Source: Nocardia sp. BMG111209 (GTDB lineage Bacteria; Actinomycetota; Actinomycetes; Mycobacteriales; Mycobacteriaceae). Taken from it: a DNA stretch of 64,000 nucleotides. The stretch lies in contig NZ_KB907307.1 of assembly GCF_000381925.1 (NCBI RefSeq), forward strand, positions 992,001 to 1,056,000, read 5' to 3'. Below the pieces are notes generated by a model, which saw only the letters and a program-made list of their open reading frames with translations, was not told the DNA's origin and ran no database searches. Both the position numbers and the translations under genes were made by a program. Below, piece after piece: positions 6,966-6,988 of the stretch (the first letter of the stretch is position 1; every line of letters starts with the position of its first letter).

Positions 6966-6988
6966 AGGCTAATCGGGGGTACCGACAA
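6966..6988 (-). promoter_or_regulatory. PafBC/RecA-NDp-type promoter of the RecB-like nuclease
   Basis: On the minus strand the sequence is TTGTCGGTA, 8 nt, TAGCCT. The published mycobacterial damage promoter activated by PafBC is TTGTCRGTG-N8-TANNNT, so the upstream element matches 8 of 9 with exact spacing and a perfect -10 pattern. The ATG at 6958 is 7 nt beyond the -10 box, so the transcript should be leaderless. Found by eye. Confidence 0.7.

Follow-up and report, generated by a model that had tools for sequence, protein, structure and literature searches.

The promoters that most resemble the site described here are the PafBC, or RecA-NDp, promoters of mycobacteria, which are said to have been described by Gamulin in 2004 and Mueller in 2018. 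An earlier note on the DNA analysed here gave their consensus as TTGTCRGTG-N8-TANNNT, with nine letters in the upstream box, a form that the excerpts consulted here do not show. For M. tuberculosis, the excerpt of PMC8151990 on which we draw prints the consensus as TGTCGG-N10-TA-N3-T, and this printed core served as the pattern for our tests. The mechanism is likewise taken from print: according to the sections of PMC11804915 used here, PafBC bound to single-stranded DNA fits SigA-RNA polymerase for promoters that carry a -26 motif, PafB binding that motif and PafC binding domain 4 of SigA. Also from print is the damage link of one particular gene, rv2119, reported in the same excerpt of PMC8151990 to be overexpressed in an M. 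tuberculosis recA mutant with mitomycin C; its product is labelled a RecB-family exonuclease in the excerpt of PMC2587704. In the portions of the literature examined, we found no enzyme work on Rv2119 or on the nuclease considered below, and the titles and abstracts on rv2119, PafBC, RecA-NDp and leaderless damage genes describe neither the present promoter nor a leaderless PafBC regulon.

How does the Nocardia locus compare? The window, by which we mean the whole 64,000-nucleotide stretch of Nocardia sp. BMG111209 that was analysed, encodes on its minus strand a 302-aa RecB-family PD-(D/E)XK nuclease (6050..6958, ATG start; PF12705, E 2.4e-40), a likely orthologue of Rv2119. Directly read on the same strand, the -26 (PafBC) element TTGTCGGTA (6980..6988) is followed by an 8-nt spacer (6979-6972), by the -10 element TAGCCT (6966..6971), a TANNNT whose position is conserved in relatives, and by the 7 nt GCCAGGT (6965-6959) that lead to the ATG (6958-6956), just as the earlier note had it. 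The published core is matched exactly on the gene's strand. Its TGTCGG (6987-6982) occupies -29 to -24 if A6958 is +1, the expected place of the PafB-bound -26 motif. Against the nine-letter form there is one mismatch, the ninth letter of TTGTCGGTA being A and not G, which bears out the claimed fit of eight in nine letters and both spacings. We consider it very likely that the site is a PafBC (RecA-NDp) promoter of the nuclease gene, giving a leaderless, damage-induced mRNA for a product of LexA-independent repair. In such a scheme, DNA damage would produce ssDNA-activated PafBC, which would let SigA-RNA polymerase initiate at the -26 (TGTCGG) and -10 (TAGCCT) elements with no conserved -35 element. 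Judged from the spacing, transcription in this strain would start at the A of the ATG (6958, minus strand) or at most 1 nt away, so the mRNA would have no leader and be translated from its first codon, and the resulting RecB-family Fe-S nuclease would serve repair independent of the LexA branch.

The pattern recurs well beyond this one gene. In the window, TTGTCRGTG-N8-TANNNT with up to two mismatches has 7 matches against 1.79 expected, and TGTCGG-N10-TANNNT has 5 against 0.13. The genome-wide scan suggested in the earlier note, carried out here by pattern over all 9.14 Mb (five contigs), returned 104 core sites compared with 16 for the reversed pattern, while TTGTCRGT-N9-TANNNT gave 15 compared with 3. 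Across the family, 55 genomes out of 64 have the core at more than twice the frequency of the reversed control and the remaining 9 do not; enrichment is moderate in genus g4 (150 sites versus 31 reversed, seven genomes). Besides the nuclease promoter, the window holds a plus-strand core site (53886-53907) downstream of pafBC, with 7 nt between it and the GTG that opens a HelY-like DEAD/DSHCT helicase gene (53915-56614). On the minus strand, 8 nt separate another site (58508-58529) from the ATG of a gene (57537-58499) for a 5'-3' exonuclease. Two more minus-strand sites follow a different picture: one (34978-34999) is 7 nt from the GTG start of a glyoxalase-like protein of 150 aa, for which a role in repair is not known, and the other (43948-43969) is near no gene start, the frame chosen after filtering beginning 195 nt away; this last one is possibly due to chance.

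The genes behind the other sites of this genome are as expected of a PafBC regulon. Family searches covered 40 proteins, namely 38 of the 44 whose starts lie close to a site plus RecA and UvrA (the near-start proteins outside these searches being the nuclease itself, L209, L216, L238, L246 and L251). Sites close to the start precede uvrB, uvrC, polA, dnaE, dnaX, holA, holB, sbcD, radA and XPB, along with genes for DNA polymerase IV, deoxyribonuclease IV, PcrA, a PolA-type 5'-3' exonuclease, Hel308-like and YoaA/DinG-type helicases, two LigA-type ligases, a LigD-type and an ATP-dependent ligase and an Fpg-type glycosylase, and recA and uvrA have sites farther upstream. Several of these proteins (polA, uvrA, PcrA and the YoaA/DinG-, Hel308- and Fpg-type ones), being cut at the end of a stretch or divergent, fall below the full-length cut-off, and 11 of the 40 downstream proteins lack a family match at 1e-20. 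Sites are also found, however, before metH, gatB, dprE1 and an ABC transporter gene, which have no known repair role. That the same pattern stands ahead of many DNA-repair genes nonetheless strengthens the assignment of the site at 6966-6988 to PafBC.

Conservation was followed through 155 orthologous loci of the family, 64 from genus g1 and 91 from 27 other genera; g1 was taken as Nocardia because the nuclease gene is 92% identical to that of Nocardia aurantia. Left out of this set were G015 (a contig-end fragment), G149, the more distant of two copies in G026 and weak matches of about 30% identity, while three split or cut-off matches (L153, L154 and L155) entered the counts unaltered. In the gap that separates trmI from the nuclease gene, on the nuclease strand, TGTC[AG][GC]-N10-TANNNT occurs in 119/155 loci, TGTCGG-N10-TANNNT in 104 and the strict nine-letter form in 21; the fuller core was found in none of the 155 on the opposite, trmI strand and once in reversed sequence. 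A looser TGTC-N12-TANNNT followed by ATG or GTG at 6-8 nt is present in 143 of the 155 (frame checked for 119). In the same loci, TGTC-to-TANNNT spacings of 8-11 and 13-16 gave no match each, and the looser pattern yielded none on the opposite strand and one in reverse. TGTCGG-N10-TANNNT is present in each of the six loci of g29, a genus taken as Mycobacterium on the strength of its TrmI, whose identity to the M. tuberculosis protein reaches 90%. The site is lacking in 12 loci: the full set of seven from g3 and single loci from g6, g11, g12, g21 and g27. In g4, g11 and g19 the -10 element and the start are still conserved but the letters that follow TGTC are degenerate, and PafBC may therefore not account for all of the conservation. 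Farther upstream, between -75 and -31, conservation in any one column stays at or below 66% among the 64 Nocardia loci and 60% among 25 representatives of genera, and hence there is no conserved -35 element. A chance match is rejected on the enrichment in window and genome together with the single-spacing conservation in relatives.

A gap of only 92 nt separates the nuclease gene from the divergent trmI (7051..7884, plus strand; PF14801, PF08704), which encodes a tRNA m1A58 methyltransferase related to Rv2118c (PDB 1i9g, E 2.4e-125) and lies upstream and divergent in 145 of the 155 loci. Since both genes share this gap, and TANNNT alone is common, the conserved block might be a constitutive SigA promoter with a chance TGTC, or belong to the opposite-strand promoter of trmI. 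We regard this as highly improbable, given that TGTC stands at a single spacing in 143/155 loci and that the pattern is missing from the trmI strand throughout. Moreover, trmI has a Shine-Dalgarno-like sequence of its own, with GGAGA conserved in 61 Nocardia, and apart from it the trmI side shows no conserved block in that genus. Loci in which the two genes are not side by side speak to the same point. At 1e-20, nuclease matches occur in 99 of 118 genomes of a class-wide sample, and outside the family we examined 43 loci from 29 families, drawn from 92 matching genomes. TGTC-N12-TANNNT with an in-frame ATG or GTG 6-8 nt on, required to open a frame of more than 200 codons, is present in 34 of these 43 loci (24 families), with one match on the opposite strand and none in reverse; a genome of 1.3 Mb (G200) has kept it. 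Eight of the nine misses show, by eye in their best-scoring stretch, a changed first box letter (CGTC or AGTC) and then ATG or GTG at 6-7 nt. A divergent trmI within 200 nt of the nuclease gene is seen in only 3/43 of these loci; elsewhere trmI lies 1.1 to 1.3 kb away (24), is on the same strand (one) or was not found within the examined stretch (15). The site is retained in 33 of the 40 loci where no divergent trmI adjoins the nuclease gene, which argues that it belongs to the latter, and a trmI promoter on the other strand is thus rejected. Box, spacing and strand being kept in this way within and beyond the family, the claim of a PafBC-type promoter gains further support.

The geometry also bears on where translation would begin. 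Each of the 119 family loci that have the fuller core shows an in-frame start codon 6-8 nt after the -10 element, ATG in 83 and GTG in 36, and in 103 of them the distance is exactly 7 nt. A distance that stays constant through ATG-GTG changes, with no other conserved upstream signal, makes a leaderless mRNA the simplest reading and, as far as sequence comparison can tell, favours both the start codon and the leaderless message predicted in the earlier note. The arrangement extends to other promoters of this genome. Stretches around 100 of the 104 core sites were examined; at 91 a downstream frame passed a GC-position filter, with the start 5-9 nt after the -10 element in 44. Unfiltered, ATG or GTG begins at 6-8 nt in 48 of the 100 sites, compared with 3 to 16 of 100 for other offset triples up to 59 nt. 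Among the 1,851 matches to TGTCGG-N10-TANNNT in 53 family genomes, the set scanned with both the core and its reverse, 922 have ATG or GTG at 6-8 nt (a site with two start codons may count twice, as one did), against 28 of 383 matches to the reversed pattern. "About half" thus means more than at other offsets or with the reversed pattern; it is no comparison with other promoters. Not all PafBC-type promoters are leaderless: recA of this genome has 48 nt between its -10 element and start, and at Rv1955, according to the excerpt of PMC2897130, some 50 nt of leader come after a RecA-NDp site. We tentatively propose, giving it slightly less than an even chance, that the actinobacterial PafBC regulon is largely leaderless, with about half of its promoters having the switch joined directly to the start codon, and that the nuclease is a core damage nuclease. 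If true, PafBC would set both the position of the transcription start and the mode in which the mRNA is translated, and the RecB-like Fe-S nuclease, whose site is kept in most families examined, would be a rigid case of this. It also offers a simple test of whether the LexA-independent damage response relies on leaderless translation under stress.

Both subunits of the presumed regulator are encoded in the same window, as had been claimed: pafB (49386..50378, plus strand; WYL and WCX domains) adjoins pafC (50375..51373, plus strand; HTH_PafC, E 2.7e-43, WYL and WCX), with WYL matches at 49833-50030 and 50798-50998. Reading frames at 13-18 kb, also considered as pafA, pafB and pafC, encode other enzymes and were rejected; a proteasomal-ATPase-type protein is encoded at 9083-10843. 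By eye, pafB shows a TACTCT 7 nt before its GTG (49373-49386, plus strand) and no TGTC at PafBC spacing, and on account of this TACTCT may be leaderless too.

Would another protein read the box? Wang et al. reportedly proposed in 2011 that a ClgR/ClpR-like protein recognises a RecA-independent motif. According to the excerpts of PMC8223512 and PMC11804915, later work has connected such promoters with PafBC and resolved their initiation complex, and a PafC match, sometimes weak, was obtained in 79 of the 80 family genomes tried, which makes control of the nuclease box by such a protein very improbable. The weak matches are not specific, however, as the HTH_PafC model also matches 8 of 14 control genomes (three over its cut-off). 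Co-variation between PafBC and its sites proved a weaker test than hoped: in g3, whose nuclease loci lack the site, the core is not enriched (32 sites versus 26 reversed, seven genomes), yet PafC-type proteins score above the cut-off in all seven genomes (G060, G090, G110, G127, G143, G157 and G170). With these proteins still detected, g3 looks like a loss of sites rather than of the regulator, and suggests a PafBC regulon that was reduced or re-targeted. Control by LexA was considered as well. The mycobacterial type of SOS box has the core GAAC-N4-GTTC; it occurs in none of the 155 upstream regions, and LexA/SOS control is rejected on that ground. Together with the rise of rv2119 in a recA mutant printed in the excerpt of PMC8151990, this backs the notion of a LexA-independent damage nuclease.

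One feature of the promoter lies beyond the PafBC pattern. The end of the -10 element and the stretch toward the start form a dyad, CCTGCCAGG (6960-6968, minus strand; CCTG-C-CAGG, 4-1-4), which could be an operator or a translation signal for a second factor, a reading that would add to the PafBC reading and not replace it. It is kept in 100 of 143 aligned loci, including genera in which the -26 letters have drifted (g4 7/7, g11 6/6, g19 7/7), and is confined to the nuclease gene, being found at none of this genome's 43 further near-start sites. On the other hand, the dyad is present in none of the six g29 loci and is missing from g6, g9, g21, g24 and others, there is no candidate protein, and CCTGCCAGG may simply be inherited promoter tuning. 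A second factor acting here is, in our view, unlikely, and the PafBC promoter remains our reading of the site with or without it.

What kind of enzyme would be induced? In 153 aligned orthologues (two of the 155 loci were dropped as too short), H81, D174, D188 and K190 are invariant, and C54, C276, C279 and C285 are present in 152. The conserved H/D/D/K set and four cysteines fit a PD-(D/E)XK nuclease with an Fe-S cluster, although cluster and repair role alike are predicted from the residues and the promoter. The earlier note had spoken of a cas4/recB-type nuclease: the recB part holds, by the PF12705 match, whereas membership in Cas4 is rejected, TIGR00372 scoring 44.2 bits where the NCBIfam cut-off is 65. 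Nuclease matches are weak or absent in all six g30 genomes, in five of six g27 genomes and in the single g28 and g31 genomes, pointing to an apparent loss of the gene; among these 14 g27/g28/g30/g31 genomes, the 10 tried have a strong PafC match. From the comparison as a whole, this uncharacterised enzyme, a RecB-family Fe-S nuclease, seems to have its place in the LexA-independent response to DNA damage in many families of actinobacteria; the broader proposal above, if true, would make it a core damage nuclease. Its start codon and its regulation are here supported by comparison alone.

Set beside known nucleases, the protein shares with the domains of Cas4, AddB and AdnAB a PD-(D/E)XK core with one cysteine before it (C54) and three after it (C276, C279 and C285); unlike them, it stands alone at 302 aa and has no helicase domain. 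The best solved relative by sequence is 6ppu, which we take to be AdnAB (chain named UvrD/Rep helicase, E 6.1e-4). Rv2119, for its part, carries a RecB-family exonuclease label, has a gene number adjoining that of the TrmI relative Rv2118c, and is the gene whose rise in a recA mutant with mitomycin C is stated in the cited excerpt. It is this label and this numbering, not a sequence comparison, that make us take the two as likely orthologues. The CCTGCCAGG stretch has no counterpart in the genus taken as Mycobacterium.

As a promoter, the site agrees with the mycobacterial PafBC/RecA-NDp class in its TGTCGG-N10-TA-N3-T core, its -26 and -10 elements, the repair genes downstream of such sites and the presence of pafBC in the genome. 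It differs in that its box is TTGTCGGTA and does not end in GTG, in that it comes from Nocardia and was traced across other actinobacterial families, and in that the start codon is placed at the predicted +1. This kind of promoter is thus already known, and the damage link is printed for the likely orthologue rv2119; what the present analysis adds is that the geometry is fixed from one family to another and that the sites, taken together, are biased toward start codons.
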